A stretch of DNA of 42,700 bases from Lachnospiraceae bacterium (GTDB taxonomy: Bacteria > Bacillota > Clostridia > Lachnospirales > Lachnospiraceae). A model generated the notes under the pieces. That model made no database searches. It had not been told where the DNA came from and worked only from the letters and a program-made list of their open reading frames with translations. Of the stretch, positions 8,106-28,303 are shown one piece after another. The position numbers and the translations under genes were made by a program. The DNA lies in assembly GCA_017480565.1 (NCBI GenBank), contig JAFVAL010000012.1, positions 1 to 42,700 of the forward strand. The letters run 5' to 3'. Numbering within the stretch: position 1 is the first letter of the stretch; each line of letters starts with the position of its first letter.

Positions 8106-9971
8106 TCACAGTCTCTGGCTGATCTTTACATTTTTCCCGGAAAATGCAATTCCCAGCTTCAGTATCTTAACAACTCCCTCGGCCTTCATCTCCACATCAT
8201 AATTCTTCTCATCAATCTGTTCCAGTGCTTTCAAGGATAACGAGCTCAGCGCTTCGTCATCCAAATGGTTCTCCGATTTCAGCTCCATGATGATGCCAGG
8301 ATACTTTTGCTCTTTGGGGAATAGGCAGATATCATATCTGCCATCTCCGGACTCTCGGTTGGACTTAATCTTGTATTGATTATCCATGATCGCGATCAGT
8401 CCCAGGACAAGGCCGTGGTAAAAACCCTCTGCACCTGCGTCGTAATAACTGATGGACTTGTTCAGATACTCTGTAATTCCAATCTGCAGCCTCGTCCAGT
8501 CAAGCGCATATAAGCTCTCTAAGATCTTGTTGGAAGTTGACCTTGTAATCGCACCAATTTGCAGCAAATGAGACAGAATCTCGCTTCTATAGACCGCTGC
8601 AATCTCCCGGTTTGGGATCGACACTTCACAAAGCCATGAACCATCACTTTGAAGCTCCTTTTTTGGTGCCTTTAAATACCCTGCCACCAGAAGCAGACTA
8701 TAGATATTGTCCGGATCCTCCGCAATCGACCGATACACAACATTCTGATCAATTCTTGCGATGACGCGATCGCCCTTCATCAGAGCATACAATTTCTCTG
8801 AGATCTCATCTGTCGCAATCTTAAGCACATCTTCCAGAATCTCATTTCTCCCAGTATTCGCCCAGTAGATCTGCGGCAGAAATCCTTTTGAGATGTAGTT
8901 AATCACAGACCAGGGATTGTACATTTCCTTGGTTCCAAAACAATACCCGTCGTACCAACTTTTTACCTCAGTCATTTTTTCAGATGCATTATAATACGCC
9001 AACATATCTCGTACTTCTGCCCCCGTGAAGCCGAAATATTCGTCGTACTCTTCCTCCATGACAGAACTTACCGTTAAATTGTTCAGCCCGCTGAAAATAC
9101 TCTCCTGTGCAATTCTCAGAATGCCTGTTAAAAAACCAAACGACAGATACCGATTATCCTTAAAAGCGCCTGATAAGAAGTTCCGCATAAATCCAATGAT
9201 TTCGTCATAGAATTCTTTTGAATAACCTTCTTGAATCGGTGTGTCATATTCGTCAATAATGATGATTGGAGCTTTTCCATAATGTTCCGTCAACATCTTG
9301 GAAAGTCTCTGCAGGGAAGACGAAAGCTCTACTTCATTGGCAACTCCATCCATAACCTTCTGAAAATATACTTGCTCATACTTCTCAAGCTGTTTACTAT
9401 CCTTCAGCTCTGAATGCTTGCCAAATTCCTCCTGCAAAAGTTCGCCAATCTTTGCAAAAGTTGCCTCCCACGTTTCAAACTTTACATCTTTAAATGTCAG
9501 GAAAATGACAGGATACTTGCCCTGATGCTCTCGGTACTTTTCACCGCACTTCCAAATCTTTTTATCAGAGAAGTACTTACTTGTATCTTCTTTAGACAGT
9601 TCAAAAAACACCCGCAGCATATCCATGTTCAAGGTCTTGCCAAACCGCCTGGGTCTGGTAAATAAAGAAACCAGTGCTTTGCGGTCAAGGAATTCCTTTA
9701 TTAAGAGGGTTTTATCTACATAATAGTATTCTGATTGTGCCCTAATGTAATCTGAAATACCAACAGGTAACGGCCTTGGTTCTCCTGTCGGTAAATTCTT
9801 TACATATTGTCCATAACGAACTCTTCCATCTACCGGTTTCTCCGCTTCATCAGGGATCTCCCATGACTTTCCGACTTTCACAGCACCAGGCACTTTACCT
9901 TTATTACACAAATCATTAGCGGTTCGTACAGAAACTCCCCATTCTATCGCTTTTTCTCTACATGTCCTCAT
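8106..9971 (-). CDS. HTH-AAA-ATPase-PD-(D/E)XK nuclease-like fusion protein
   Basis: The 621-residue protein has three parts. Residues 1-45 form an excisionase/MerR-like HTH (AIEWGVSVRTANDLC, then GKVPGAVKVGKSWEIP). Residues about 68-330 are an AAA-ATPase_like domain with the P-loop TRPRRFGKT (105-113) and Walker B IIIIDEYDTPI (about 236-246). The C-terminus has a PD-(D/E)XK nuclease-like domain with GDGRYDICLF and IIMELKSE, the Asp and Glu-x-Lys of the core. Members are numerous in gut Clostridia and Bacteroidetes and their role is unproven; defence or mobile-element roles have been suggested. The HTH is the unusual part. Base composition is AT-rich. RBS: GAGGAG. Confidence 0.85.
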   Translation of the reverse strand: MRTCREKAIEWGVSVRTANDLCNKGKVPGAVKVGKSWEIPDEAEKPVDGRVRYGQYVKNLPTGEPRPLPVGISDYIRAQSEYYYVDKTLLIKEFLDRKALVSLFTRPRRFGKTLNMDMLRVFFELSKEDTSKYFSDKKIWKCGEKYREHQGKYPVIFLTFKDVKFETWEATFAKIGELLQEEFGKHSELKDSKQLEKYEQVYFQKVMDGVANEVELSSSLQRLSKMLTEHYGKAPIIIIDEYDTPIQEGYSKEFYDEIIGFMRNFLSGAFKDNRYLSFGFLTGILRIAQESIFSGLNNLTVSSVMEEEYDEYFGFTGAEVRDMLAYYNASEKMTEVKSWYDGYCFGTKEMYNPWSVINYISKGFLPQIYWANTGRNEILEDVLKIATDEISEKLYALMKGDRVIARIDQNVVYRSIAEDPDNIYSLLLVAGYLKAPKKELQSDGSWLCEVSIPNREIAAVYRSEILSHLLQIGAITRSTSNKILESLYALDWTRLQIGITEYLNKSISYYDAGAEGFYHGLVLGLIAIMDNQYKIKSNRESGDGRYDICLFPKEQKYPGIIMELKSENHLDDEALSSLSLKALEQIDEKNYDVEMKAEGVVKILKLGIAFSGKNVKISQRL

Positions 9972-12799: not shown

Positions 12800-13882
12800 T
12801 TACTTCGCCGTCCGCGCCTTTCGATACGCGGACGGTGTCATTTGATACGCCTCTTTAAAGGTCCGGCTCATGTGCGAGGCCGCCGAAAATCCGCACAGAT
12901 ACGCGATTTCTTCGAGTGACAGCTCTGTCTCGACCAGATACTGTTCCGCAATTTTTAATCTCGTCTGCATCAACAGTGCGTTGAACGTATCCCCCGTCTT
13001 CTCCTTGACGATCCGGCAAATGTACTGCTTACTGAAATGAATCGTATCCGCAAGCTCTGTCAGACTTGCAGTTTGATAATTCTTCTGCAGGTACATTTCA
13101 ATCTCACGGAACTGCTCATCCATCCGGGTCACTTTCGCAGCCGTCTCAATCTTTGTCTCCGGCGCACGAAATGCAGCCGCAAACAGAAGCGGCAGATAGC
13201 TTCGCATGACCACATTGCTGTATTCATCTTGCTTGATGTATTCCGCAAATATACTGAGAATCAATTGTCTGATCTCCTCGTTTCCATCCGTATGAATCGC
13301 AGCATACGAAGCTTTCTCTTCCTCCGCAACCGACTCCGTAATAAACCTTGAAAGCGCCGGGTGTCCCAAAAAGACCGTCTTATACTCTGCTGCCAGGTAG
13401 GATTTCCTTAAATTAATGCAGATACAAAGTCCGTCCATGCTTGTCTCCACAGAATAATAGATGTCCGGAGATATGAGAAAAAAGTCCCCCGCCCGAAGTC
13501 CGTGGGTACTTTCATCCAGGGTAATCGTTGTCGTGCCCTCCATCTGATAAAACAGTGAATAATAATTACATTTGTGGCGCAGCCCACCCGGGAAATTAAA
13601 CATTTTAGAGACCGAATAATCGTATCCGGACATGATATTCAGTGCATCTGTCACATCACCGATATCGGAAATGGACTTCGGCAGTGTCGCGGAGCTTAGA
13701 GACATCGGAAAATAAAACCGATATAAATCCTTTGAACGAAGCACATAGTTGTCAAAGTATTCCGTATAAGTCTGATATTCCTCAAAATTGTGCGGCTTGT
13801 TGGAGTATTCCATATAGGAAATCTCCAGATTCATTAAGTTTTGCAGGATATTGTAAACCTGCCTCGCATCTATCGTATTCAC
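12800..13882 (-). CDS. AraC-family transcriptional regulator
   Basis: The C-terminal 100 residues are a full AraC double HTH: SLTELADTIHFSKQYICRIV and then LSLEEIAYLCGFSAASHMSR with the closing YQMTPSAYRK. The N-terminal part has a cupin-like sugar-sensing segment (GLRAGDFFLISPDIYYSVE) after about 120 less conserved residues. At 360 residues it is longer than usual. The start is GTG, supported by AGAGG. It is divergent from the GPH symporter (218-base gap) and convergent with the rhamnosidase, so it likely controls both for rhamnosides. Confidence 0.9.
   Translation of the reverse strand: MNTIDARQVYNILQNLMNLEISYMEYSNKPHNFEEYQTYTEYFDNYVLRSKDLYRFYFPMSLSSATLPKSISDIGDVTDALNIMSGYDYSVSKMFNFPGGLRHKCNYYSLFYQMEGTTTITLDESTHGLRAGDFFLISPDIYYSVETSMDGLCICINLRKSYLAAEYKTVFLGHPALSRFITESVAEEEKASYAAIHTDGNEEIRQLILSIFAEYIKQDEYSNVVMRSYLPLLFAAAFRAPETKIETAAKVTRMDEQFREIEMYLQKNYQTASLTELADTIHFSKQYICRIVKEKTGDTFNALLMQTRLKIAEQYLVETELSLEEIAYLCGFSAASHMSRTFKEAYQMTPSAYRKARTAK
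12808..12835. terminator. Perfect hairpin at converging gene ends
   Basis: CCGTCCGCG (12808-12816) and CGCGGACGG (12827-12835) pair perfectly. The hairpin lies in the last codons of the AraC gene, 24 bases after the rhamnosidase stop. No T-run follows on either strand, so it is a weak terminator at best. Confidence 0.4.
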
Positions 13883-14100
13883 AGCATTCCTCTTTCCGGA
13901 TGACAGAATCCTTCGTTGTCTCTCATTATAGGTCTCATTTTCCTCCGGCGCAACAGCTTTTGTTTCATCTGAGATAAATGTTTTTGCCTCTCGTTCACAT
14001 TTTACAGCTGTTTGAATACCCCAGTGATTTCATTGTGAATAAAAACACTTTACAATAACAACAGAATCAAACAAGACTCTTTTTGAGGGAGGTTTTATCT

Positions 14101-15603
14101 ATGAGTGAAGTAAAAAGACTCAATGTCGCAGATGAGAAATTTTCGGGAAAGAAAGCCCTCGGCTTTTCCCTGGTTCGTTTAAGCAACATCCTTGCAGGTC
14201 TTATGGCGGGTGAGATTACCTACTTTTCCACCAACAGCTTAGGCCTTGCGATCGCAGCGATCTCCGCCGGTCTTGCCGCAAAAACCGCGATTGATGCGGT
14301 CACCGATCTGATCATGGGCGCGATCGTCGACGGTACCCATACGAAGTTCGGCAAGGCAAGACCTTGGATCCTGGCGGGCATCCCGATGTGGCTTTCCCTC
14401 GTTGCCCTTTTCCTCGCACCCAGAGCTGCCATGAGTGATGGCGCGCTGGTTGCTTACATTACGGTACTTGCTACCTTAGAGAGTGCAGTCTTCTCGACGA
14501 TGATCAGTATCGCCTATGAGACACATATCAAGCGCGCCATCGTCAAGGAAGACAACCGTATCAAGACCCTGACCATCGTCGGTGTGGTGTTTGCGATCGG
14601 TTCCCTCGGTCTGCAGGTTGCACTGCCTGCCTTGATCAATGCTTTCCACGGCTCTCAGTCCGGTTTCGTCATCATGGCTCTGGTCACCGCAGTGATCGGT
14701 ATCGCAGGCATCTTAATCTGCTTCTTTATCTGCCCGGAGTATTCTGAAGAAGACCTCGCTGCTTATGGTGGTTATGATGTCAAAGAAGCCAAAGAAAAGG
14801 TTTCGGTCGGTGTCTTCTTAAAGAGCCTGTTAAAGAATAAATACCTCTTTATGTACACCCTGATCAACTTCTTTTACATGTTAATCCTGATGAGTTCCTT
14901 CACCATCGGTCAGTACTATTTCCAGTACGTGTTTGGCAACCTTGGCACCTTCTCCCTGGTGCTTGCCGCTTCTGCCGGTATGATGCCGATCTACATCTTT
15001 ATTCCGAAGCTCTGCAAGAAATACGGCGTCTCGAAAGTCATCATGGTCTCCATGATCATCGCTGCTGCAGGCGTGATCCTTCGTATGTTCCTGCCTCACA
15101 TGTTGGTCATCCAGATGGTCGGCTATCTGTGCGCAAGCCTTCCGAATGTCTTCATCGCATGTGTCGGCTCTCAGATCAACTATCAGTGCATGGAATATGG
15201 CCAGTACAAAACCGGTGTCGTCGCAGAAGGAATGTACTCCGCATTCATCAGCTTTGCGCAGAAAATGGCAACCAGCTTAAGTTCTCTGTTAATCGGTCTG
15301 ATTCTCGCAGCCGGCGGCTTTGATGTTCTGACCCAGGCAGTCACAAAGAATGGCTTTACCGATTGGGCGGAGCTCTCCGCACTCGGCACCGCAGGCTATG
15401 AACAGTATGTCGAAGGTGGTGCAGCTGCAGTCACCAAAGCGCTCTCCGGTATCAGCTTCGCTTATAACTGGGTGCCACTCATTTTCCTGGCCCTTGATAT
15501 CGTTCTCTTCGCTTTCTTCCACTTGGATCGCGACTTAAAGAAGCTTCGCGTGGAACATGGCTTGAACGAAGACGGCAGCTTAAAGGAAGATGCCGAGGCA
15601 TAA
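14101..15603 (+). CDS. GPH-family (MelB/YicJ-like) sugar:cation symporter
   Basis: This 500-residue MFS protein has about 12 membrane segments and the GPH hallmark DAVTDLIMGAIVDGTHTKFGKARPWI in the loop between helices 2 and 3 (cited in two parts: the Asp-rich helix 2 and the DGTHTKFGKARPW loop). GPH carriers import glycosides, pentosides or hexuronides with H+ or Na+. The ATG at 14101 is chosen over 14083 because GAGGGAGG precedes it. Divergent from the AraC regulator and followed by a strong bidirectional terminator; likely substrate rhamnosides or other plant-derived oligosaccharides. Confidence 0.9.
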   Translation: MSEVKRLNVADEKFSGKKALGFSLVRLSNILAGLMAGEITYFSTNSLGLAIAAISAGLAAKTAIDAVTDLIMGAIVDGTHTKFGKARPWILAGIPMWLSLVALFLAPRAAMSDGALVAYITVLATLESAVFSTMISIAYETHIKRAIVKEDNRIKTLTIVGVVFAIGSLGLQVALPALINAFHGSQSGFVIMALVTAVIGIAGILICFFICPEYSEEDLAAYGGYDVKEAKEKVSVGVFLKSLLKNKYLFMYTLINFFYMLILMSSFTIGQYYFQYVFGNLGTFSLVLAASAGMMPIYIFIPKLCKKYGVSKVIMVSMIIAAAGVILRMFLPHMLVIQMVGYLCASLPNVFIACVGSQINYQCMEYGQYKTGVVAEGMYSAFISFAQKMATSLSSLLIGLILAAGGFDVLTQAVTKNGFTDWAELSALGTAGYEQYVEGGAAAVTKALSGISFAYNWVPLIFLALDIVLFAFFHLDRDLKKLRVEHGLNEDGSLKEDAEA

Positions 15604-15621: not shown

Positions 15622-15658
15622 AAAGCCCGAGATCGTGATGATTTCGGGCTTTCTTTTG
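15622..15658. terminator. Bidirectional terminator between symporter and larA-like gene
   Basis: AAAGCCCGAGATC (15622-15634) pairs with GATTTCGGGCTTT (15640-15652), 13 pairs with one G-U and a 5-base loop. T-rich tracts follow on the plus strand (TTTCTTTT) and on the minus strand (TTTT). Confidence 0.9.
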
Positions 15659-15677: not shown

Positions 15678-16961
15678 TCAGTCTTGATTAAATTTCTCGC
15701 GGTTGATCCACAGACCCAATGCAGGGTTCGGGATGAAATACACTTCCTCACCGTCCACGGTGTTATAGCCGTACTGCAGCGTCTGCGGATTGTATTTCCT
15801 CGCCATTTCCTCGTAATCTGCGGGATGGAAACCGACAGAGGCAATCTCCTCTTTGGTGATGTCTTTCACCGCATAGGTGATGGTGAATCGTCCGTCGCTG
15901 GAGCCGTGAATCAAGTGAGCCGCCGCGCCCATGTTGGCGCGCAGGTCTTCATTTGCAGGATCACGGAACTGTGTAAGAGTATTGAGTCTTCCGCGGTAGC
16001 CATACTTGCGGATCAACTTGTCCACTAGGTCATCTTCGCCGAAGCGCTCCACACCGGGTGCCAGGATGATCAGCTCACCGCCGTCCGCCATCGCCATTCT
16101 GGTGCGGTAGACAGCCTTGTTGCCAAGCCATGTGCTCTTAAACTCTTCGGGATCTAAGTAAACCACGCACTTTTTCAAGCCGTGCTCGACGAAGTCGATA
16201 TTCTTCTCCTGCGCCAGTTTCACAGCCTCGGTCAGGCAGTCACGGCCTTCGCCGATGAAGATCCCATGCGTGTGGATCTTGCCGCCGGGCGCTGTGGTGA
16301 CGGTCAGTACAAAGAGAATCGGACGATCCTTTAAGAAATGCTCCAGGCCATAATCAAAGAGCTTGCGGACCGGGGTGTAATCCTTGCCCATCATACGCTC
16401 CATGCCATAGACCGCGCCGACCATGTGGGACTTGTTGATCATCTCGCTGCCGCCCACGCCGACAAACAGGTTCTTTGCGTGGTTTGACATGCCGATCACT
16501 TCGTGCGGCACCACCTGTCCGGGAGAAATGATCAGATCATAGCTCTCGTCCATGATGCGCTTGTTGATCTCCGCGCTGATCGCCTCGTTCCAGAGGCCTT
16601 CCGTGATGTCGGAGAGGAATTCTGCCGGGATGTCGCCCAGCTTTACCACATCCGTACGCCAGTTGTGAACCAGCATCCGCTCATAAGGTACATCGCCGAT
16701 CATTGCTTCCCACTGGCTCTTTGACACCGGAACATGGGTGCCTAATGCGGGTAAAATGTCAACCTCTACGCCGCGTTCTGTCAGGACGTGGTAATACACA
16801 TTCGTGATATATCCTGCGTTGGAATGAAACCGGGTGAAGTCAGGCGGAAGGATCAATACCTTGTGAAGGTCTCTGCCTTCCAGGCTTTTTAACAGAAGGT
16901 CCTTGATCTCCTCCGGAGACAATCCCGCGTCCGTGCTTGCAATTTTGTAAATGTCGTTCAT
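15678..16961 (-). CDS. LarA-like nickel-pincer hydroxyacid epimerase, possible gluconate/mannonate 2-epimerase
   Basis: The protein belongs to the lactate racemase LarA superfamily, which uses a nickel-pincer nucleotide bound to a lysine to epimerise C2 of hydroxy acids. Key residues are present: His76 (ALGTHVP), His153 (GQVVPHEV), Lys163 (SNHAKNLF) and His179 (INKSH). The spacings of 10 and 16 residues are identical to His174-Lys184-His200 of the L. plantarum enzyme. It is the last gene of an operon with 6-phosphogluconate dehydrogenase, a PfkB kinase and a HAD phosphatase, so the substrate is probably a sugar acid. I recall a LarA homologue described as a D-gluconate 2-epimerase; this is not checked. 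Start: GGAG lies 8 bases before this ATG and only 2 before the alternative at 16967. Cofactor genes larB/C/E are not in the window. Confidence 0.85.
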   Translation of the reverse strand: MNDIYKIASTDAGLSPEEIKDLLLKSLEGRDLHKVLILPPDFTRFHSNAGYITNVYYHVLTERGVEVDILPALGTHVPVSKSQWEAMIGDVPYERMLVHNWRTDVVKLGDIPAEFLSDITEGLWNEAISAEINKRIMDESYDLIISPGQVVPHEVIGMSNHAKNLFVGVGGSEMINKSHMVGAVYGMERMMGKDYTPVRKLFDYGLEHFLKDRPILFVLTVTTAPGGKIHTHGIFIGEGRDCLTEAVKLAQEKNIDFVEHGLKKCVVYLDPEEFKSTWLGNKAVYRTRMAMADGGELIILAPGVERFGEDDLVDKLIRKYGYRGRLNTLTQFRDPANEDLRANMGAAAHLIHGSSDGRFTITYAVKDITKEEIASVGFHPADYEEMARKYNPQTLQYGYNTVDGEEVYFIPNPALGLWINREKFNQD

Positions 16962-16963
16962 AT

Positions 16964-17797
16964 TCATCTCTCCATAAGGATTTCATTGATTGCCCGGCCA
17001 ACACCGCTGTGATCACAGTCATCGGTCAGCCGGTCCGCCACAGCCTTGACCTCGGCGTATGCATTTGCCATAGCGACGCCGATACCAGCCACGCTTAACA
17101 TATCAATATCATTCAAATCATCGCCAAATGCCATCGTCTGCGAAAGCGGAATGCCAAGGTGCTCAGAAAGCAGCCGCAGGGCATTGCCTTTGTTCGCTTC
17201 CTGGCTATTGACTTCGATGTTGTTGACAATCGAAGACGTGACCTTCATATCGGGAAATTCTTCCGGCAAGATCTTTAACATCTGCGCGCGCAGATCCATA
17301 TCCTGGAAGAACGCCTGCACCTTTTGCACGCCTCTTTGACGTGAGGCCAAACATTCTTTCAGATCCGGTACCGGTGTCCGAAGGTGTAAGATCATATCCA
17401 GGCTGTGCGGGTTCGCGGCATATTCCTCCGCTTGGTCATACAGAGCCTGCGTCATCCATCCCCAGCCGTCCTGATAACAATCGTAAATGACCGGCAAGGT
17501 GTCAAGACGCTCCATCAACGCCACCGCTCTCTCCCAGGGCAGCTCCGAGCCGCAGACCGTGCGGTCTTCCTTCACATCATAGACCTGAGCGCCGTTGATC
17601 GTGATCACATAGCGGACATAGGGGAGGTTACGGATGATTTCCGGCATGCCTTTATAAAAACGGCCTGTGGCGGGGACAATCTCTATCCCCGCCTCTGCCG
17701 CTTTCTGAAGCGCTGCCGCGTTTTCTTCGGTAAGTCGTTTGTCTGAGGTCAAAAGCGTACCGTCCAGATCAAACGCAATCAGCTTGATATTATGCAT
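16964..17797 (-). CDS. Cof-type HAD-IIB sugar phosphatase
   Basis: The protein has all four HAD motifs: [18 protein letters not shown], the KGNAL lysine and [10 protein letters not shown]. The cap domain is of type C2B (Cof-like), whose members dephosphorylate sugar phosphates. The true start is the ATG at 17797, directly before [12 protein letters not shown]; it overlaps the end of gnd by 8 bases (ATGCATAA), and its own stop nearly abuts the larA-like start. Such tight packing implies translational coupling and a shared pathway, perhaps clearing dead-end phosphates such as a phosphorylated C2 epimer. Length 277 residues, usual for the family. Confidence 0.88.
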
Positions 17798-19241
17798 TGT
17801 AAGTCGTTGCCGCGGTGTTGCCGCCGTGACCGGTCCAGTTTGTATGGAAGAACTGGCCTCTCGGGGTGTCCAGACGCTCGTAGGTGTGCGCACCGAAATA
17901 GTCGCGCTGTGCCTGAAGCAGGTTTGCAGGCAGACGCTCGGTGGTGTAACCGTCAAACCAGGTCAGTGCGGAAGTCATCGCAGGTGCCGGAACGCCGTAC
18001 TGCACTGCCGCTGCCGCAACTTTGCGCCATGCAGGAACGAGCTTTTCGATGGTCTCTTTAAAGTACGGATCCAGAATCAGGTTCTTCAGCTCCGGATTTG
18101 CATCATAAGCTTCCTTGATCTTGCCCAAGAAGACGGAACGGATGATGCAGCCGCCGCGCCACATCAGTGCGATACCGCCATAGTTTAAGTTCCAGCCGTA
18201 ATGCTGTGCTGCGGTTCTCATCAAGGTGTAGCCCTGTGCGTAGGAGACAATCTTTGCAGCGTAGAGTGCCTGACGGATCGCCTCGATCATCTCAGCCTTG
18301 TCGCCCTCAAATGCAGGAATCTTGCGGTCGAAGATCTTTGCTGCTTCCACACGCTCTTCCTTCATTGCGGAAAGGCAACGGGAGAATACGGCTTCACCGA
18401 TTAAGGTCAGCGGAACGCCCTCATCCAAAGCTGCGATGCCGGTCCACTTGCCGGTACCCTTCTGACCTGCGGTGTCCAGAATGTGCTCCACAAGCGGCTC
18501 GCCGTCGGTATCCTTATAAGCCAGGATGTCTCTGGTGATCTCGATCAGATAGCTGTCAAGCTCTGTCTTGTTCCACTCGGTGAAGACCTCATGCATCTCT
18601 TCATCGGACATGCCAAGAAGGTCACGCATCAACTGATAAGCTTCGCAGATCAGCTGCATATCACCGTACTCAATACCGTTATGAACCATCTTGACAAAAT
18701 GGCCTGCACCGTTCTCACCAACCCAGTCACAGCAAGGGTCACCGTTCTCAACATGTGCACTGATGCTCTGGAAAATGTCTTTGACATACGGCCATGCTGC
18801 CGGAGATCCGCCGGGCATCAAGGACGGTCCCTTCAGAGCGCCTTCTTCGCCGCCGGAAACGCCGGTGCCCATATAAAGCTTGCCCTTCGACTCCACATAC
18901 TCTGTGCGGCGCATGGTATCCGGGAAATGAGAGTTGCCGCCGTCGATGATGATGTCCCCATCTTCCAGCAGAGGAAGCAGCTGTTCAATCAGTGCGTCGA
19001 CTGCTGCGCCGGCCTTGACCATCATAAAGACCTTGCGCGGCTTCTCAAGATTGTCCACCAGCTCCTCAAGAGAATGGCAGCCGATGATGTTCTTACCCGC
19101 AGCGCGGCCATTTACAAAGTTGTCCACCTTGGAAGTGGTACGGTTAAATACAGCAACGGTGAAGCCCTTGGACTCCATGTTCATAACCAGGTTTTCGCCC
19201 ATGACGGCGAGGCCGATGAGGCCGATATCCGCTTTCTTCAT
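17790..19241 (-). CDS. gnd: 6-phosphogluconate dehydrogenase, decarboxylating
   Basis: The enzyme oxidises 6-phosphogluconate with NADP+ to ribulose 5-phosphate and CO2 in the cytoplasm. The Rossmann motif [13 protein letters not shown] is at residues about 10-22, the catalytic segment [14 protein letters not shown] around 190, and the family signature [13 protein letters not shown] around 260. At 483 residues it is the normal long form. It lies between a PfkB kinase and a HAD/LarA pair, not in a pentose phosphate operon, which points to a dedicated catabolic use of gluconate-level sugar acids. The upstream kinase ends 21 bases before. Confidence 0.97.
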
Positions 19242-19262
19242 ACGATTCTCAATCTCCCTTTC

Positions 19263-20327
19263 TTATCTTTGTACACGGGCATTGCCCTTATAAATGTCCC
19301 ATACCTGCTTCTCGTCTGCAGGCTCCGCATAGTCATTCAAGCTCGAAGCTGCTAACACGCCAGAAGCCCAACCAAACTGCAGCCACTTCTCAGGCTCCCA
19401 GTCCATCAGCACGCCGTAAAGCAGACCGCCGGAGAAACCGTCGCCGCCGCCGATACGGTCCATGACCTGGATCTCTCTGGGCTCTTCGACGTACCACTTT
19501 CCGTCCGCCCAAAGAATTGCGCCCCACAGATGCTCGTTCGCGCTGATGACCTGGCGAAGTGTGGTTGCATAAGCTCTTGCGTTCGGATACTTCTCACGTA
19601 CCTGATCGATCATCGCCTGGAAGCGTTCAATCTTGCTGCCAAGCTCCTTGCCGCCGGCTTCCGGTCCCGCAAATCCAAGGCAAAGCTGGAAATCTTCTTC
19701 GTTGCCCACAAGGATATCTGCGACAGAAGCGATCTCATGGAACGCTTTGCTCAGCTCTTCCTCACGGCCCTTCCAGAAGGATGCACGGTAGTTAAGGTCG
19801 AAACTCACGAGTGTACCGTACTTCTTCGCAACCCTTGCAAGCTCCAGGCATGTCCGTGTGGTATCCTCACTCATTGCAGCAATCAGGCCGGAAAGATGCA
19901 GAATGCCAACGCCCTCTTCTCCGAAAATGCGGTCGAGATCGAAGTCTTCCGGCTTCAGGGTTCTGCCGACTTCTCCTGCGCGGTCATTCCAGACACGAGG
20001 TGCACGAAGGCCGAAACCAGAGTCCGCAATATTAAACTGATGACGATATCCCCAAGGCCCGCCCTGCGGCACTTCCTTGCCCTCATAGCGGATATTCCTT
20101 GATCTTAAACCACGCTTGATAAAGTCAGCCATCGGAGATCCCTCGACAAACTTCGTCAGGACAAGGCACTCCTTGCCAAGGCTGGAAGCGACGTTAAGGA
20201 CGTTGCTCTCTGCGGACGTTACCTGCAGATAATACAGATTACTGTTCTGTACTGCCATGCGGTCCTGCGGCGTGATGCGCAGACCCATGGAAGTGACTGC
20301 GGCGATTGCGTATTTCTTGTTTTCCAT
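19263..20327 (-). CDS. PfkB-family sugar (acid) kinase
   Basis: This is a ribokinase-fold kinase of 354 residues. The anion-hole and catalytic motif is DRIGGGDGFSGG with Asp296; the second glycine-rich region is replaced by SAESNVLNVASSLG near residue 40; VSFDLNYRASFW (about 174-185) is typical of 2-keto-3-deoxygluconate kinase-like members. Conventional annotation would be KdgK. No KDPG aldolase is nearby, whereas gnd follows directly, so phosphorylation of gluconate (or mannonate) at C6 is an alternative I favour as inference. It is the first gene behind a promoter with two matching operator repeats. AGGAG precedes the ATG. Confidence 0.88.
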   Translation of the reverse strand: MENKKYAIAAVTSMGLRITPQDRMAVQNSNLYYLQVTSAESNVLNVASSLGKECLVLTKFVEGSPMADFIKRGLRSRNIRYEGKEVPQGGPWGYRHQFNIADSGFGLRAPRVWNDRAGEVGRTLKPEDFDLDRIFGEEGVGILHLSGLIAAMSEDTTRTCLELARVAKKYGTLVSFDLNYRASFWKGREEELSKAFHEIASVADILVGNEEDFQLCLGFAGPEAGGKELGSKIERFQAMIDQVREKYPNARAYATTLRQVISANEHLWGAILWADGKWYVEEPREIQVMDRIGGGDGFSGGLLYGVLMDWEPEKWLQFGWASGVLAASSLNDYAEPADEKQVWDIYKGNARVQR

Positions 20328-20382
20328 GCTTTTCTCCTTTTTTGAACGGATGATAGTCTCCTAAATTGTTGATAGTTCACAG

Positions 20383-20434
20383 ATTACATGTGATTTTATC
20401 ATAACATTTTTCAAGAGAAATGTAAATTACATGT
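20383..20434 (-). promoter_or_regulatory. Promoter and paired ACATGTAAT boxes before the kinase-gnd-HAD-larA operon
   Basis: The minus strand reads TTTACA (20421-20426), 17 bases, then TATGAT (20398-20403). ACATGTAAT occurs twice in the same orientation, at 20426-20434 overlapping the edge of the -35 and at 20383-20391 just past the -10, 43 bases apart. This is a repressor-like arrangement around a good promoter. The regulator is not identified in the window. Confidence 0.7.
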
Positions 20435-20467
20435 TTACCTTGCACAGTACGCTTTGAGGTCCAAACA

Positions 20468-21322
20468 TTATACGCCGGAATAGGCGGAGAAACCGCCATC
20501 GATTGGGATTGTGACGCCGGTGATAAAGCCTGCGGCCTCGTTGTTTAACAGAAACAGTACCGCACCGTTAAGCTCGGTATCGCTGTCACCAAAGCGTCCC
20601 ATCGGAGTCATCGACAGAAGCTTCTTGGTTCTCTCCGTCGGCGTGCCGTCGGGATGAAACAGCAGTGCATGATTCTGCTTGGTCGAGAAGAAGCCCGGGG
20701 CGATGGCATTGACCCGGATCCCCACCCTGGAGAAATAAACTGCCAGCCACTGGGTGAAGTTGGTCACCGCAGCCTTGGCACCGGAATAGGCCGGGATCTT
20801 GGTCAGCGGTTTGTAGGCGTTCATGGAGCTGATGTTAAGGATACAGCAGCCCTCGCGTCCGACCATCTGCTTGGCAAATGCCTGCGTCGGAATCAGGGTT
20901 CCGATGAAGTTTAAGTTAAAGACGAATTCGACACCGGCCTCATCCAAGTCGAAGAAGCTCTTGGTATCGGCATCGATGTCGCCGATTTCATAGTACTCCT
21001 TATCAGTGGTCGCTCTGGGGTTGTTGCCGCCGGCGCCATTGAGCAGAATGTCACAGGGTCCGAAATCCCGCAAAACCTCGTCTGCCACGGCTTCGCAGCG
21101 GGCCTTATCTGTCACATTACAAGCGTAAGCCTTGGCGATGCCGCCTTCAGCGCGGATCTCCTCTGCAAAGATCTCCGCTTTTTCCACCGTGCGGTTAAGC
21201 AGGGCAACCTTTGCGCCAGCCCTTGCCAGCACCTTCGCAAGCGTAGAGCATAGCACGCCGCCGGCGCCCGTCACGACCGCGACTTTTCCTGACAGATCCG
21301 TGTTCAAAACATTTTGCTGCAT
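20468..21322 (-). CDS. SDR-family D-mannonate oxidoreductase-like protein
   Basis: A 284-residue short-chain dehydrogenase with NAD(P) motif VVTGAGGVLC (17-25), Asn138, Ser166, and Tyr179-x3-Lys183 (AYSGAKAAV). The GAGGNNPRAT segment and the long insert after it are typical of the fructuronate reductase/D-mannonate oxidoreductase type of SDR (B. subtilis UxuB-like), which interconverts D-fructuronate and D-mannonate. The start at 21322 is chosen because AGAGG lies before it; a GTG at 21331 is part of that site. It follows a HAD gene by 18 bases and precedes the kinase promoter. Substrate assignment is from sequence feel and context. Confidence 0.8.
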   Translation of the reverse strand: MQQNVLNTDLSGKVAVVTGAGGVLCSTLAKVLARAGAKVALLNRTVEKAEIFAEEIRAEGGIAKAYACNVTDKARCEAVADEVLRDFGPCDILLNGAGGNNPRATTDKEYYEIGDIDADTKSFFDLDEAGVEFVFNLNFIGTLIPTQAFAKQMVGREGCCILNISSMNAYKPLTKIPAYSGAKAAVTNFTQWLAVYFSRVGIRVNAIAPGFFSTKQNHALLFHPDGTPTERTKKLLSMTPMGRFGDSDTELNGAVLFLLNNEAAGFITGVTIPIDGGFSAYSGV

Positions 21323-21340
21323 GAAAAGCACCTCTTTTAC

Positions 21341-22225
21341 TTAGTCCCAAGTTTGCGCATCCGGCAGAGAATTCAGGAAATTCTCCACATATGCATCCAT
21401 CTTTTGCTCACGATATACGCCCGCAACAAAGCTTGCCAAAGCCACGTCGCCCAACTCTTTCCAGCTATCGTTTTCCTTTCCGGGAACGATGGGGAAGAAC
21501 ATAACGCCGTTGTCCTGCGCAGCCTTCAGGTCGCTGGCAGCATCGCCAACCTTTAATACCTGGTCAGGGGTATAGCCGCCGGTCTCCAGAGCCATCCGGA
21601 TGCTTTCCGTCTTTGTGCCGGTGTTTTGTCCGGCGACACAGTCAAAGTAGTCAATGACACCGCAGGCGGTCAATTCGCGGATCAAAGCCTCATCCGGTGT
21701 TGCGGAGACAATCATCACGTCGGCATATTCCCGGATTTTGGTCAATGTCGGTTTGACATTCGGGAAGGGCAAAATGTTGCGGACAATGCGTCGAATATTC
21801 TCGTCGACCTCTTCTCCCCAACGGGCAGCCCTAAGCAATGTTTCGTCCTGAATGTTATTTTCCTCAACATAACGACGAAGTGCCGGCGAGGAAAGGCTCG
21901 GTGTCACTTCAATCCAGTGACGCAGCGAGGTTAAATCCGGTTTCTGAAGCCCGACCTCTTTGACCTCAGGGCGGTCATAGAGCAGGTCCAGCGTCCGTAC
22001 GAGCGCAGGGAAACGATTCCATCCTCTGGAACGAGAATACAAGTTAACAAACTCTGCTGCCTTCCTGGCATACTTAGATACCGCCTGCAGATCCCAGACA
22101 TTGACGGTTGCGGGGCAGAAGCATTCCTTATGCTTGAGCTCCATATTGTCAAGAAGGCAGCCGTCAGAATCGACACATACCAGCAGGTCATGCTTGCGAA
22201 TCAGGTTTAAGGTATTATCAGCCAT
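21341..22225 (-). CDS. HAD-family hydrolase, probable phosphatase
   Basis: The 294-residue protein has the HAD nucleophile motif CVDSDGCLLDN (Asp19, Asp21), motif II VSATPDE and motif IV KVGDAASDLKAA. A large helical insert between the first two motifs (residues about 40-180) is the cap. Substrate unknown; its place between GH2 and the mannonate-oxidoreductase-type gene suggests a phosphorylated sugar of the same pathway. The start at 22225 follows AAGGAGAG; an upstream in-frame start would run into the GH2 gene. The two HAD genes of this cluster are of different subfamilies. Confidence 0.85.
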   Translation of the reverse strand: MADNTLNLIRKHDLLVCVDSDGCLLDNMELKHKECFCPATVNVWDLQAVSKYARKAAEFVNLYSRSRGWNRFPALVRTLDLLYDRPEVKEVGLQKPDLTSLRHWIEVTPSLSSPALRRYVEENNIQDETLLRAARWGEEVDENIRRIVRNILPFPNVKPTLTKIREYADVMIVSATPDEALIRELTACGVIDYFDCVAGQNTGTKTESIRMALETGGYTPDQVLKVGDAASDLKAAQDNGVMFFPIVPGKENDSWKELGDVALASFVAGVYREQKMDAYVENFLNSLPDAQTWD

Positions 22226-22259: not shown

Positions 22260-24455
22260 TCATCCGCGCTTGATCTGCTGCAGCGCAGCGTTAACATGGC
22301 GCTTGATATTGTTGGAAATAAAGGGATTGGCCAGTGTCAAGACCTGCTCCATCGGAAGCTCCAGATCATCCAGCTCCTCTGGATGGGCCCGCAGATTGCG
22401 GATGAAGTCGCTCTCATCTTTGCCGGGACGGTTGACACAGCCAAGGACGATGGCCGCTGCTTCCTCATTTTTCATCAGGTCACAGACCCGGTCTTTCAGG
22501 TTATAGTAATCTTCCTTAAGGCCTCCGGCGTCAAACCAGTTCAGGATACCGCCCCCTTTAAGGATGTAGCTTTCGTCTGGCGTGTCCACATGTTGAATCA
22601 CGATCTCATCTCTGTGCTTTCCGCCCACAGCCTCGATGCGGTGCTCTCCGCTGATCGGTACAGCAAACGTAAACTGATACTGGCCGGTCTTCTTGGCAAA
22701 AAACGTACCGTCCACGTACAGAGCTACCTCCGGCAGATTGCTGTAGACCGTCACATCCGTCATTTCCTCCGTACGATTCTTGTAGCGTCGGCCGGTGAGA
22801 TAGACAAACGGCTCCTTTGACCAGTGGGCTTTATAAAGGTAGAACACATCTTTCTTGAGCTTTCGGTCGAAACTCACAAGCCCCTTCTGGTTGATGCCCT
22901 TGGTTCCACCCTCATCTCTGGCATCGGCAGCAAAATCAAACATGTTCCAGGCGTAGCTGCACCAAATCCACGGTCTCTTGGCCAACATGGACAGAATATG
23001 CTCGTGATAGACTCTCTGGTATTCTTCAGAGTAATCGCCCCGCTCTGGCTTAGCACTGTGGAAAGCAGGATTTGTATCACATCCGTACTCCGTAAATCCG
23101 ATCGGTACGTCTGGGTTTTTCGTGTGGAAGGTGTCAAAAAAGGCATCGTTGTCTTCCAGTTTGCCGACATACCAGCCGAAATAGATGTTGTAGGCCGTAG
23201 CGTCCGGCAGGGAAATCAGCGGATCGTCGATCTCCAGCATCATGACATTTGCCATGACGGTAAGCCGGTCCGGATCAAGCCTGTGGACAAGCGCATTGAG
23301 TTGCTCATGATTGTCGCGCAAATCATCCGAAAGGCCCTGCATTGTGATCTCGTTGGAGAGGCCCCAGCAGACAATCGAAGGATGATTATAGTTTTGTATT
23401 ATGAGCTCTCTCATCTGAGAGAAGGTATTCTCCCGTCCGTCTGGCATGTGTGCAGAAATGTACGGGATCTCCGCCCAGATGACCAGCCCGCACCGGTCGC
23501 AGAGTTCATAAAAATACGGATCATGCTGATAGTGGGCAAGGCGAATGGAATTCGCGCCCATTTCACGGATCAGCGCCATATCTTCGTCATGCTCTTTTTT
23601 TGTCAGGGCATTTCCAAGGCCAAGGCGGTCCTGATGGCGACTCACACCGCGCAGGGGATATGATCTCCCATTGAGAAAGAAACCTTGCTGCGGATCGATG
23701 GAAAAGCTCCTGCAGCCAAACCTGGTTGATACCTCATCCAACAGGGCTCCGTCTTCACCGGTCAGCTCAGCCTTCGCCTCATAAAGGAACGGATCGTTCA
23801 GGCCATCCCACAGCCGAGGATTCTTAAGGATAAATTCTGCCTTCGCATGACCCTCTTCGCTGGGAACCGTGACGTTTTGCCCATCCACGATGAAGGTTAC
23901 CATGCCCCCGTTTTGCCAGGTTTCCACGGTAACTGCATATGCTTCGCCCTCCGATATCGCCCGGACTTTGATGCCCGGGGAGCCTGAGGATACCAGTTCA
24001 AAATGAGTGCGTGGCACAACGATCAAATTCGCATCGCGGTACAGACCACCATAGAAGGTGAAGTCCGCCTGCTGGGGGTAAACCCGGTCATTTGCCGCAT
24101 TATCTGCAACCACGCAGAGCAGATCTTTGCCCGTCAGACGTCCGGTCAGCTCTGTCCGGAAGGTCGCATAGCCCCCATCATGCGTGCACAGCAGTTCCCC
24201 GTTCAGCCAGACTTCCGCACTGGAATTACACCCCAAAAACTCCAGGAAGACTGCCTCGTCATTCTGGGGATGTAGGGACAATTCCCTTGCATAAACAGCC
24301 CTGCCGCGCCAGTAGTCGTTGCCGCCATCCTGGCCGTCAAGTGCGTTCCAAGTGTGGGGCAGGCAAACCTTCGTCCATTGCTCCGGGAGTTTGGCGGGCA
24401 GCTCGGCAGCTTTTTGGAAAAACCAATCTTGATTGATGTTAATGATTTGTCTCAT
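22260..24455 (-). CDS. GH2 family glycosidase (beta-galactosidase or beta-glucuronidase type)
   Basis: The 731-residue protein has the GH2 plan: sugar-binding sandwich (1-150), immunoglobulin-like domain (150-250), TIM barrel from about 260. CWGLSNEIT gives the acid/base Glu369 and GFTEYGCD the nucleophile Glu456. An N-x-K-G motif (Asn522, Lys524, in GINQKGL) is the pattern that in gut beta-glucuronidases contacts the uronate carboxylate, but similar motifs also occur in some GH2 beta-galactosidases, so it does not settle the substrate. The C-terminal part beyond 640 is a small helical region. No signal peptide: it works on imported sugars. AAGGAG before the ATG; 30 bases after the esterase gene. 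Confidence 0.92.
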   Translation of the reverse strand: MRQIININQDWFFQKAAELPAKLPEQWTKVCLPHTWNALDGQDGGNDYWRGRAVYARELSLHPQNDEAVFLEFLGCNSSAEVWLNGELLCTHDGGYATFRTELTGRLTGKDLLCVVADNAANDRVYPQQADFTFYGGLYRDANLIVVPRTHFELVSSGSPGIKVRAISEGEAYAVTVETWQNGGMVTFIVDGQNVTVPSEEGHAKAEFILKNPRLWDGLNDPFLYEAKAELTGEDGALLDEVSTRFGCRSFSIDPQQGFFLNGRSYPLRGVSRHQDRLGLGNALTKKEHDEDMALIREMGANSIRLAHYQHDPYFYELCDRCGLVIWAEIPYISAHMPDGRENTFSQMRELIIQNYNHPSIVCWGLSNEITMQGLSDDLRDNHEQLNALVHRLDPDRLTVMANVMMLEIDDPLISLPDATAYNIYFGWYVGKLEDNDAFFDTFHTKNPDVPIGFTEYGCDTNPAFHSAKPERGDYSEEYQRVYHEHILSMLAKRPWIWCSYAWNMFDFAADARDEGGTKGINQKGLVSFDRKLKKDVFYLYKAHWSKEPFVYLTGRRYKNRTEEMTDVTVYSNLPEVALYVDGTFFAKKTGQYQFTFAVPISGEHRIEAVGGKHRDEIVIQHVDTPDESYILKGGGILNWFDAGGLKEDYYNLKDRVCDLMKNEEAAAIVLGCVNRPGKDESDFIRNLRAHPEELDDLELPMEQVLTLANPFISNNIKRHVNAALQQIKRG

Positions 24456-24485: not shown

Positions 24486-25469
24486 TTATCGAAGTTGTCT
24501 CAGGCCTTCCTCAACCGCTGCAACCCCCGCAGGATCCAGTTCCATGATGGAAGCAAAGCGACGGAAGCTAATGTAGCTGAAGAAGGGATTGGCGTTCAAT
24601 AGATTTACTTGATCCGGGAACCGATCGGCGATCAGTGCCCGTGCTTGAGAATGTGCGGCAAGAATGTCGCAGCGGGTATCTAAATCCGGCTTCTTTCGGT
24701 CCAATCCGCCCCAAAGCAGGTTTTCTCCCGACCAGACATGACTTAAGAACGATACGCTCATGTCCAGCCATTTTGCGGCGTCAGGGTTTTCATCCCCTGT
24801 CGTGTGGGTAGCCAGTGCCAGACCATGATCGCCCGAGACAAAGACATGGCTCTCACAGGGTACGCCTGCCTCTACCAACTGCACAGCCATGCGCAAGGTG
24901 CTGATACAGGGCACCGTGGCATCGGGCTGTGTAGCAAATAGAAAGGCCGGCGGGGTGGTCTGATCGATCTTGTCAAACAGCGGCTCGGTCTTGACATCGC
25001 GGATTGACAGATTGTCATCATACGCCCCGTATCCCAGGATCATCGCGTTGGCCTTGTCCTCGGTCAAAAGGTTGAGAGAGGCGCTTAGATTTGCGCCGGC
25101 GGAAAACCCCACCGTAGCGATCCGGTTCGGATCAAGATGCAGCTTAGCCGCATTTTCCCGCAGATAACGGATCGCACTCTGCGCATCGGCTAAAGCGCAG
25201 GAGAAAACCTCCTCAGCCGGTTTTTGCGGACAGCCCGGGGTACGGTCCCCCGTCACACAGTACCGAAGAATGAAGGCGTTGAAACCCCGAGCCAAATAGG
25301 CCATAGCGATGGGATCTGCTTCTTTGTCCACGCAGTGCATATAGGCACCACCGGGAAAAACCAGTACGCATGGTTTCGCTTCGGATTCGGGCAATGTCAC
25401 GCTCGGCTCATAGCAAAAGCCCGTAAGCTGCGCCCCATTTGGCTCCAATGTAGTTTCAAAATATCGCAT
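24486..25469 (-). CDS. Alpha/beta-hydrolase, probable carbohydrate (acetyl) esterase
   Basis: The 327-residue protein is an alpha/beta hydrolase of the hormone-sensitive/acetyl-xylan esterase kind: oxyanion hole VFPGGAYM, nucleophile elbow GFSAG with Ser123, Asp183 in TQPDATVP and His215 in GDHGLAL. A C-terminal extension of about 85 residues is not explained by the fold. No signal peptide. It probably removes acetyl groups from imported oligosaccharides before the GH2 and GH3 enzymes act. The ATG lies 3 bases after the GH3 stop and the ribosome site is inside the GH3 gene, so the two are translationally coupled. Confidence 0.85.
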   Translation of the reverse strand: MRYFETTLEPNGAQLTGFCYEPSVTLPESEAKPCVLVFPGGAYMHCVDKEADPIAMAYLARGFNAFILRYCVTGDRTPGCPQKPAEEVFSCALADAQSAIRYLRENAAKLHLDPNRIATVGFSAGANLSASLNLLTEDKANAMILGYGAYDDNLSIRDVKTEPLFDKIDQTTPPAFLFATQPDATVPCISTLRMAVQLVEAGVPCESHVFVSGDHGLALATHTTGDENPDAAKWLDMSVSFLSHVWSGENLLWGGLDRKKPDLDTRCDILAAHSQARALIADRFPDQVNLLNANPFFSYISFRRFASIMELDPAGVAAVEEGLRQLR

Positions 25470-25472
25470 CGC

Positions 25473-27194
25473 TTATCTCCTGGTATCCCAGCGGTCGCAC
25501 CAAACCAGGTCATTTGCCTTGCCGGTGAATTCGCTCTTGCCGGTGATCTTTTCGATGGCTGCCCGAATGTACTCCCTCGTCGGTGCATACGCGTTGACGA
25601 AGGTCTTCAGCATGGGCAGATCGTAAAGGTGATTCGTATAATTTAGAGAAACTCCGATGGTCGGTACTTCGTAAACAAACCACGGAAGCTCACTGGAATG
25701 TGCAGCGGACCATTTGACGCGCACGTTGTTTTCCTGGGCGTAGCCCTTCATATGGACAAACATAAATACGACATCATATTTCTTCTTAAATTCCTCCACG
25801 GGAGGCGTTGCCATAATCTTAAAGGAATTGGCCGGGCTCATCTGCTCGCATTCCATCTCGTAATAATCTTTGTGATCGTCCACCGTAAATCCGGCGCGCT
25901 CCAGCTCCTCGATGACAATTTTCTTCGCAGGATCCGTACCGTTTAAGTTGCTGACCGGTGCGGTCTCGACATAGTAGAGGATCGCACGTGGCTTCTTTGC
26001 CGGATCGATAGGCAGCGCGTGCTGCGTGTCCTTGACCAGCGTAACAGCCTTATCCGCACAGATTGCCGCAGCCTCATGATGATCTTCGCAGCCAACAACC
26101 GAGAGACCATCTTCGGACGGGAACTGATACTTGTAAAGATTCAGCTTCGCCTTCAGGCCGAGGATGCGATGCAATGCATCGTCCAGACGTTCGGGTGTGA
26201 TGATGCCCTTCTTGTAGCCATCCATCATGTAGCCGAAGTCCTCTGCAGGGTCGTTAAAGAACAGGAACATATCACAGCCTGCCGCAATCGCGCCGGGAAC
26301 CTGCACGCTTCTGGGTGCCGCGGTGGACAGTCCTGCCATGTGGCTTGCGTCCGTCAGCACCAGACCGTTAAAGCCCAAGTGATCCCTCAGAAGATCCTGT
26401 AACAGTTCAGGAGACAGGGTTGCAGGGAGAATGTCAGCGTCGGTCATGCCGGGACGAAGCTTCTTGCTCCATGCAGGCATACAGATATGTCCGACCATGA
26501 CGCTCTCTACGCCAGCCTCAAAGACCGCGCGGTAAACCTTGCCGAACGACTTTTCCCACTCCTCGACGGAAAGATCGTTGCAGCCAAGCACCAGGTGCTG
26601 GTCACGCTCTTCCACGCCATCGCCGGGGAAGTGCTTGCAGCAGCAAGCGATACCATGCTTGTGAGCGCCCTCCATGTAGGCGATGGAATCCGCGATCACT
26701 TCGTCGGGATCGTTGCCAAAGGCACGGTTGTTGACGATGGTATTGCGCCAGTTGTAGACCACATCTGTGATCGGCGCAAATGTCCAGTTGACACCGATCG
26801 CCTTGGCCTCCTCGGCAGCCTTGTCGGCCATAAGTCTGGCCACCTCAGGACCACCCGCACCCATTGCAGGGCCGGGCGCTAAAAGTGTGCCGCCCTTTAA
26901 CGACTTCTCTGCGCCTGCCTCAAGATTGGCTGCGATCAGCACAGGGATTTTGCTATGCTCCATATAATACTTATTCTGCTCGTACTGCTCCTTCAGGGAG
27001 CCGCCCTGCCAGCGAACACCGCCGACATGGTAGTTTTCGATCATGTTTTGATAGGCTTCCTGACGATGGTCATAGTTCAGGCAAATGAATAGCTGCCCAA
27101 TCTTCTCCTCCAGCGTCATGGAAGCGATGGTGTTCTCTACCCAGTCGATTTGCTCATCGTTCAGGAAGAAGGGATTTGTTCTCAGATTGACCAT
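25473..27194 (-). CDS. GH3 glycosidase, NagZ-type with His-Asp dyad
   Basis: This 573-residue GH3 enzyme has the (beta/alpha)8 domain with nucleophile Asp282 in VLTDASHM. The loop KHFPGDGVEERDQH (187-200) holds the Asp-x-His dyad used as acid/base by the NagZ branch of GH3 (beta-N-acetylhexosaminidases, some of them phosphorylases). The C-terminal part (about 370-573) is a second domain, of alpha/beta-sandwich type, longer than minimal NagZ. No signal peptide. It is the first of the hydrolase genes after the transporter. The substrate in this cluster may not be GlcNAc; activity should be treated as open. Confidence 0.88.
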   Translation of the reverse strand: MVNLRTNPFFLNDEQIDWVENTIASMTLEEKIGQLFICLNYDHRQEAYQNMIENYHVGGVRWQGGSLKEQYEQNKYYMEHSKIPVLIAANLEAGAEKSLKGGTLLAPGPAMGAGGPEVARLMADKAAEEAKAIGVNWTFAPITDVVYNWRNTIVNNRAFGNDPDEVIADSIAYMEGAHKHGIACCCKHFPGDGVEERDQHLVLGCNDLSVEEWEKSFGKVYRAVFEAGVESVMVGHICMPAWSKKLRPGMTDADILPATLSPELLQDLLRDHLGFNGLVLTDASHMAGLSTAAPRSVQVPGAIAAGCDMFLFFNDPAEDFGYMMDGYKKGIITPERLDDALHRILGLKAKLNLYKYQFPSEDGLSVVGCEDHHEAAAICADKAVTLVKDTQHALPIDPAKKPRAILYYVETAPVSNLNGTDPAKKIVIEELERAGFTVDDHKDYYEMECEQMSPANSFKIMATPPVEEFKKKYDVVFMFVHMKGYAQENNVRVKWSAAHSSELPWFVYEVPTIGVSLNYTNHLYDLPMLKTFVNAYAPTREYIRAAIEKITGKSEFTGKANDLVWCDRWDTRR

Positions 27195-27219
27195 TTGTTT
27201 CTCCTTTATGATACAGAAA

Positions 27220-27251
27220 GGGCCACGGTATCTTCAGGATGCCGCAGCCCC
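27220..27251 (-). other. Intercistronic stem-loop between permease and GH3
   Basis: GGGCCACGGTATC (27220-27232) pairs imperfectly with GATGCCGCAGCCCC (27238-27251), with two G-U pairs and one mismatch. It may be a partial terminator or processing site that lowers expression of the hydrolase genes relative to the importer. Confidence 0.45.
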
Positions 27252-27263
27252 ATTTGGTTTTTA

Positions 27264-28280: not shown

Positions 28281-28303
28281 AATCGCACCTCTTGCTTTCT
28301 TTG

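Follow-up and report, generated by a model that had tools for sequence, protein, structure and literature searches.

Results

Gene content of the locus

The DNA analysed here, which we call the window, is a stretch of 42,700 nucleotides from a Lachnospiraceae bacterium (GenBank assembly GCA_017480565.1, contig JAFVAL010000012.1, positions 1 to 42,700); it is the whole of one contig (C1) of a 76-contig, 2.78 Mb genome with an estimated completeness of 98.76%. In particular, we followed up a minus-strand gene cluster ending in a gene for a LarA-like protein, which an initial annotation had guessed, from this one locus, to encode a hexuronate route that bypasses the mannonate dehydratase UxuA. 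In order of transcription the cluster encodes a GH2 glycosidase, a HAD-family hydrolase, a short-chain dehydrogenase/reductase (SDR), a PfkB-family kinase, Gnd, a Cof-type HAD protein and the LarA-like protein, each from an open reading frame. The last five had been named in the initial annotation, and the family scores confirmed their labels. The SDR (20468-21331), a D-mannonate oxidoreductase (fructuronate reductase), scored 427.3 bits against NF006132 (cut-off 281); the kinase (19263-20327) matched PF00294; Gnd (17790-19241), the decarboxylating 6-phosphogluconate dehydrogenase, scored 768.5 bits against TIGR00873 (cut-off 426.7); the Cof-type HAD-IIB phosphatase (16964-17809), which we regard as accessory, scored 172.2 bits against TIGR00099 (cut-off 137); and the LarA-like protein (15678-16967) scored 613 bits against NF052594 (cut-off 500). 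The genes from pfkB through to that for the LarA-like protein are separated by 21, -20 and -4 bases, and 140 bases lie between those for the SDR and PfkB.

The LarA-like protein belongs to the LarAH18 group

NF052594 describes a "nickel-dependent putative hexonate epimerase" (LarAH18), and the window protein scored only 20 bits against the LarA model itself. Passages of PMC7583248 (2020) sort LarA homologues into groups, of which groups 19 and 20 were assayed as D-gluconate 2-epimerases (GntE) acting on D-mannonate, and hypothesise that group 18 epimerises "a hexonate". The sole match in the PDB at an E value of 0.01 was 4nar, which is GntE2 of Thermotoga maritima. Through an alignment with 4nar, seven catalytic and cofactor residues (D43, R46, H78, H155, K165, H181 and K284) could be equated with LarA D72, R75, H108, H174, K184, H200 and K298 as numbered in passages of PMC7583248. 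All seven were intact in 81 of 81 LarAH18 sequences, in line with the complete catalytic set reported in the initial annotation. Moreover, E156 and V157 of the loop and W280 of helix alpha-11 were kept in every one of these sequences; the protein thus shows two of the three features that passages of the same article give for groups 18-20 (loop E-V/S and the alpha-11 tryptophan). GntE1 and GntE2 (LarAH19 and LarAH20) resemble LarAH18 in the catalytic residues and in the loop and tryptophan features and differ from it in phylogenetic group. In the stretch from H354 to R360 both residues were present in 80 of 81 sequences, the remaining one having a gap, and the GntE2 sequence differs here, so that the substrate may also differ at its distal end. 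We found no assay of a LarAH18 protein in the open-licence literature. (PMC11770544 describes an additional GntE, from an oomycete; a term search found no "LarAH18" in its text.)

LarAH18 genes are linked to PfkB, Gnd and uronate genes

One scan of genome contigs yielded at least 80 LarAH18 loci; all counts out of 80 refer to a sample, among the matches listed. Of these, 42 form a well-covered subset, with no less than 6 kb of sequence upstream and 3 kb downstream; a gene counted as near when it lay on the same strand at a distance of up to 8 kb. In this subset Gnd was near LarAH18 in 36 loci, PfkB in 32 (Gnd in every one of those 32), UxaC in 17, UxaE in 8, KdgK in 2, KdgA in 2 and UxuA in 1, and a reductase was near in 19 (12 SDR and 7 long-chain); UxaC, reductase, PfkB and Gnd occurred together in 15. 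With loci cut by contig ends included, the 80 listed loci gave Gnd in 59, PfkB in 46, SDR in 24, UxaC in 22, UxaE and the long-chain reductase in 10 each, KdgA in 4, UxuA and KdgK in 3 each, and the complete set of UxaC, reductase, PfkB and Gnd in 17. UxaC and UxuA were together near LarAH18 in none of the 80, and PfkB and Gnd lay less than 300 bases apart in 45 of the 46 loci holding both. The linkage of PfkB and Gnd to LarAH18 and to each other is beyond chance. As hosts the records name, among others, Clostridia, Bacilli, Spirochaetes and Verrucomicrobia-type metagenome-assembled genomes (MAGs). (Note that UxaE was identified by a Pfam scan of the L035 protein only, the other UxaE proteins being BLAST relatives of it.)

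When unannotated neighbours were clustered few shared genes emerged; annotation was obtained for UxaE, a PHP-domain protein, a GntR regulator and a single match resembling a 2-oxoacid dehydrogenase acyltransferase. The place between LarAH18 and Gnd is taken by the PHP-domain protein in five loci (L092, L094, L096, L101 and L105; for example L092:11267-12130) and in others by a Cof-type HAD protein, the latter being near LarAH18 in 17 of the 80 listed loci. Both might be pathway phosphatases.

The Gnd-linked PfkB proteins form a subfamily

No NCBIfam model reached its cut-off with the window PfkB. Its Gnd-linked family is tight, in that 31 homologues are 58-88% identical to the window protein and share an invariant C-terminal ARVxR. 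The window protein falls short of the curated models for 2-keto-3-deoxygluconate (KDG) kinase, with 91, 54 and 29 bits against cut-offs of 440, 400 and 400. Against NF041633 (cut-off 700) both it and the Gnd-linked PfkB of locus L085 scored 169 bits; KDG-kinase-like PfkB proteins encoded in the same loci as a Gnd-linked PfkB (L057, L076 and L088) scored 430-476 bits against this model, and they too were under the KDG kinase cut-offs. Judged by these comparisons, the Gnd-linked PfkB proteins are a subfamily apart from the KDG kinases, and the window protein fits a sugar-acid kinase other than KDG kinase. Since Gnd is linked, we propose gluconate as the probable substrate, which would make the protein a gluconate 6-kinase. 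We found no PfkB gluconate kinase in such a setting described in the open-licence literature. (The closest PDB match of the window protein is the T. maritima KDG kinase 2afb, at 122.7 bits; a role as KDG kinase was considered on this ground and judged unlikely, given the tight linkage to Gnd and given that some of these loci encode a KDG-kinase-like paralogue as well.)

UxuA is scarce in genomes with LarAH18

We examined 58 LarAH18 genomes, namely 8 relatives with LarAH18 over the cut-off and 50 genomes reached through the 80 listed loci and picked for length and taxonomic spread. UxaC was over its cut-off in 48 of them and missing in 10. UxuA was over its cut-off in 17 of the 58 and reached at least 381 bits in 12; all of these were among the UxaC-bearing genomes (17/48 and 12/48, respectively). 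By comparison, 80 of 145 relatives had UxaC, and of these the 72 without LarAH18 had UxuA in 62 and the 8 with LarAH18 had it in 5. Across the sets the contrast in UxuA gave Fisher P values, with kinship ignored, of 1e-11 (strong matches) and 1e-8 (any over the cut-off). Thus, UxuA is scarce in LarAH18 genomes across phyla. KDPG (2-keto-3-deoxy-6-phosphogluconate) aldolase was kept in 41 of the 58; because KDG has other sources, this favours neither view of the cluster.

Within the source genome, whole-genome searches placed UxuA on contig C73 and KDPG aldolase on C41, with a further sub-cut-off match on C6, and neither on C1, which agrees with their reported absence from the window. The two genes are unlinked, lie on separate contigs and do not form one operon; a co-regulated uxuA-kdgA set without a link to uxaC, which was to count against the bypass, is therefore not what we found, and uxaC is linked to LarAH18 in relatives. 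No aldolase-family match was present on C73, and no kdgK was found among its annotated or read neighbours, a genome-wide kdgK search not having been made. On C41 (L112:6132-9196) the aldolase gene stands in a row with two others, one for a 2-hydroxyacid dehydrogenase and one for an FGGY kinase that scored under the cut-off for gntK; the three may belong to another sugar-acid pathway.

Genes for the nickel-pincer nucleotide cofactor

The source genome has genes for nickel-pincer nucleotide (NPN) synthesis above the cut-offs, with LarB and LarC adjacent on C74 and LarE on C46. (It also encodes two further LarA homologues above the lactate racemase cut-off of 460 bits: L115:6230-7510 on C36, at 594 bits, and L116:6033-7349 on C31, at 627 bits.) Among the 58 LarAH18 genomes, LarC was over its cut-off in 30, LarE in 26 and LarB in 26; by this measure 25 had all three, 27 none and 6 were mixed. 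Note that the 50 genomes found by way of their loci have no stated completeness, which bears on these absences, and that the absence of UxaC from 10 of the same 58 genomes is a rough yardstick for them. Of the 26 genomes without any of the three for which the locus was read, 22 had PfkB and Gnd near LarAH18, 2 had Gnd alone and 2 had neither. Among the genomes without any of the three are the named strain Peloplasma aerotolerans M4Ah (L085), a set of four spirochaete MAGs with LarAH18 proteins that group in one supported clade, and genome G155 (L057), where a contig breaks off in a fragment of LarE that scored 148.4 bits against a cut-off of 150. On a LarAH18 tree of 57 rows (L012 of genome G133 was left out) the label "none" required 14 changes, compared with a shuffled mean of 19.4 and a number as low in 5 of 500 shuffles. 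The label "all three" showed no clustering, with 17 changes against a shuffled mean of 18.7 and a number as low in 124 of 500 shuffles, and some of the absences are therefore probably assembly gaps. Because the absence is only partly clustered and most completeness values are not given, we treat LarAH18 genomes devoid of LarB, LarC and LarE as unexplained rather than as established. It is a tentative idea, and not one that we favour, that a substantial proportion of LarAH18 species use the bypass without LarB, LarC and LarE, either taking up NPN made by neighbours, as an unrecognised community vitamin, or making it with enzymes of a new kind. We found no discussion in the open-licence literature of LarA homologues in genomes without LarB, LarC and LarE; passages of PMC11796402 mention the converse case, LarB, LarC and LarE without LarA.

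Upstream, flanking and regulatory features

Genes outside the account of the initial annotation include those for the second HAD-family hydrolase and the GH2 glycosidase, both on the minus strand, and for a transporter and a regulator. The hydrolase (21341-22225) scored 47.1 bits against PF13419. The GH2 protein (22260-24455), probably a beta-glucuronidase releasing glucuronate, had the beta-glucuronidase 7kgz as its best PDB match (844.5 bits, aligned end to end over residues 1-729); matches two to four (800 bits) carry the depositor label beta-galactosidase, the fifth is a beta-glucuronidase, and against the beta-glucuronidase model NF050095 the protein scored 543 bits, under the cut-off of 950. 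On the plus strand, a GPH-type sugar/glucuronide symporter (14083-15603), proposed to serve uptake, scored 166.6 bits against TIGR00792, below the cut-off of 231, and was above the cut-off for PF13347. An AraC-family regulator (12800-13882, minus strand; PF12833) is divergent from it.

A terminator-like hairpin of 14 pairs (15622-15652) lies between the convergent symporter and LarAH18 genes and has the longest stem of the 11 terminator-like sites found (shuffled mean 10.5). The gap between the SDR and pfkB genes (20328-20467, minus strand) may hold a promoter for pfkB-gnd-cof-larAH18: it contains a promoter-like site at 20426-20398 (TTTACA, 17 bases, TATGAT, with TG preceding the second hexamer), which is weak because the region has 11 such sites and shuffled sequence has 8.6 on average. 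At this site, 5' of pfkB, the sequence ACATGTAATYT occurs in two exact copies (20381-20434), which could be an operator. With at most one mismatch the motif has 3 matches in the window, none of them outside the gap 5' of pfkB (chance mean 1.26); as many matches arose in 10 of 100 shuffles, and the idea of a shared operator or regulon was dropped.

Adjoining the uronate genes is a glycan-degradation block (24486-39213) with genes for an esterase, GH3, an ABC transporter with BPD_transp_2 permeases, GH39, GH2 and a GH35-like protein; the product of 28351-29637 is likely an ABC substrate-binding protein (Peripla_BP_4, 24.2 bits, below the cut-off of 35.1). Elsewhere, 8106-9971 encodes a protein with AAA-ATPase_like and PDDEXK_9 domains. 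No Rfam family reached its gathering score in the window, and no tRNA was found there.

Discussion

We think it probable that the cluster serves hexuronate catabolism that ends in the pentose-phosphate pathway by way of a C2 inversion by LarAH18. In this scheme glucuronides would enter through the GPH symporter, and the GH2 enzyme, to go by its homology, would free glucuronate. UxaC, encoded elsewhere in this genome and inside the cluster in many relatives, would then make fructuronate, which the SDR would reduce to D-mannonate. LarAH18, using NPN, would invert C2 to give D-gluconate, the PfkB kinase would form 6-phosphogluconate, and Gnd would convert this by oxidative decarboxylation to ribulose 5-phosphate and CO2, returning the reducing equivalent that the SDR spends. 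All of the substrates, and the placing of the epimerase before the kinase, are what we infer; mannonate is suggested because UxaE, UxaC and the mannonate-forming reductase converge on it. The presence of UxaC, UxaE and an SDR or long-chain reductase beside LarAH18, PfkB and Gnd in relatives lends support to a bypass of the kind guessed at initially, and the scarcity of UxuA across phyla and the separateness of the PfkB subfamily add to it.

The same route could run in reversed order, with PfkB phosphorylating D-mannonate and LarAH18 epimerising 6-phosphomannonate to 6-phosphogluconate. According to passages of PMC6978723, both of these activities were measured in extracts of Lactobacillus suebicus, and the conserved H354-R360 stretch, unlike that of GntE2, would leave room for a different distal end of the substrate. 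However, the nearest assayed relatives, the GntE enzymes of groups 19 and 20, use free D-mannonate in the account given in passages of PMC7583248, and we regard this order as unlikely. Less probable still is that LarAH18 acts on some other hexonate or aldarate. The KM of GntE1 for mannonate is very high, such that passages of PMC7583248 allow for another substrate; the prediction for group 18 goes no further than a hexonate; and some LarAH18 genes have no Gnd nearby. Against this stand the proximity of Gnd in 59 of the 80 listed loci and the convergence of the neighbouring enzymes on mannonate. (Altronate was considered and is an unlikely substrate: the UxaE of these clusters converts tagaturonate to fructuronate, which points to fructuronate and mannonate.) The least credible alternative is that PfkB is the KDG kinase of a UxuA-KdgK-KdgA route, with gnd and the larA-like gene serving something else: although 2afb is the closest structure, uxuA and a KDPG aldolase gene exist in the genome, and UxuA and KdgA are near in 2 and 4 of the 46 PfkB loci, Gnd is near in all 46, and KDG-kinase-subfamily PfkB proteins are encoded in some of the same loci, including L057, L087 and L088, which also hold KdgA.

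Several observations weigh against a LarAH18 bypass that ends in Gnd. The cross-phylum contrast in UxuA is uncorrected for kinship and compares sets that differ in taxonomy, and within the window's own order the difference (5/8 vs 62/72) is not significant (P = 0.12); the wider set clearly shows a loss of UxuA, which is not demonstrated in that order. Gnd is not near LarAH18 in six of the 42 well-covered loci (L040, L052, L068, L070, L077 and L102), of which four carry Victivallales, Kiritimatiellae or Verrucomicrobia in their titles, and in other loci UxuA (L041, L046 and L057) or KdgA (L057, L069, L087 and L088) is near LarAH18. The three long-chain reductases that were scanned matched D-arabinitol 4-dehydrogenase best and fructuronate reductase next, and their role is no more than inferred because the scores were under every cut-off. 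Since the source genome itself has UxuA and KDPG aldolase, the bypass need not be its only route, and it perhaps runs the UxuA route too. Its UxaC is encoded on C14 beside a gluconate 5-dehydrogenase-type SDR, tagaturonate reductase and a galactarate/altronate-type dehydratase (which matches galactarate dehydratase below the cut-off), and no UxaE was seen in the window, the genome not having been searched for it; in the related loci UxaE is near in 8 of 42. Lastly, the 27 genomes without LarB, LarC or LarE over the cut-off (for example those of L085, L079, L082, L086 and L088) keep the NPN residues in LarAH18.

The route that we favour, from mannonate through gluconate to Gnd, has counterparts. 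The gntK product of T. maritima is, we presume, an FGGY-family kinase. Passages of PMC3750489 describe in this organism an operon aldH-pelB-gnd-uxaRED-gntEK in the UxaR regulon, as well as a co-regulated kdgA-kdgK-uxuB-uxuA operon that it keeps, and passages of PMC6978723 credit Rodionova 2012 with the proposal of a path from mannonate through gluconate to 6-phosphogluconate. The operon and the LarAH18 loci have in common that gnd stands together with genes for a fructuronate reductase, an epimerase of the LarA family and a kinase, joined in some of the related loci by uxaE; the Thermotoga-type combination of gnd, reductase and epimerase is present in the window and, as to Gnd and reductase, in 36 and 19 of the 42 related loci. 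They differ in that T. maritima has a LarAH20 epimerase and gntK, whereas the window has LarAH18 and a PfkB kinase and no GntK-family kinase, and in the neighbours of LarAH18, which include uxaC in relatives and the gene for the probable GH2 glucuronidase in the window. The L. suebicus pathway, in the account of PMC6978723 available to us, likewise joins mannonate to 6-phosphogluconate and Gnd and is redox neutral to ribulose 5-phosphate, but there the kinase acts first; the genes for its mannonate kinase and 6-phosphomannonate 2-epimerase were not identified, gluconate-kinase homologues being the candidates. The canonical UxuA-KdgK-KdgA route shares UxaC and mannonate oxidoreductase with the LarAH18 scheme; its UxuA is over the cut-off in 17 of 58 LarAH18 genomes and near the cluster in 3 of the 80 listed loci. 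Because the T. maritima proposal, the GntE assays and the L. suebicus variant are published, the chemistry and the scheme are already in print. Ours is a variant of that scheme, and what is new is another LarA group, a PfkB kinase and a wide distribution that we have not found described in the open-licence literature.

These findings provide a concrete substrate hypothesis for a group that NCBIfam calls only a "putative hexonate epimerase" and put forward a family of PfkB proteins as the likely gluconate kinases; they also raise the question of where LarAH18 members without LarB, LarC and LarE obtain their cofactor. If the scheme is correct, bacteria lacking UxuA can burn glucuronate released by a beta-glucuronidase through a route that is redox neutral and depends on nickel, and metabolic models based on UxuA, KdgK and KdgA would miscall such bacteria as non-users of hexuronates.

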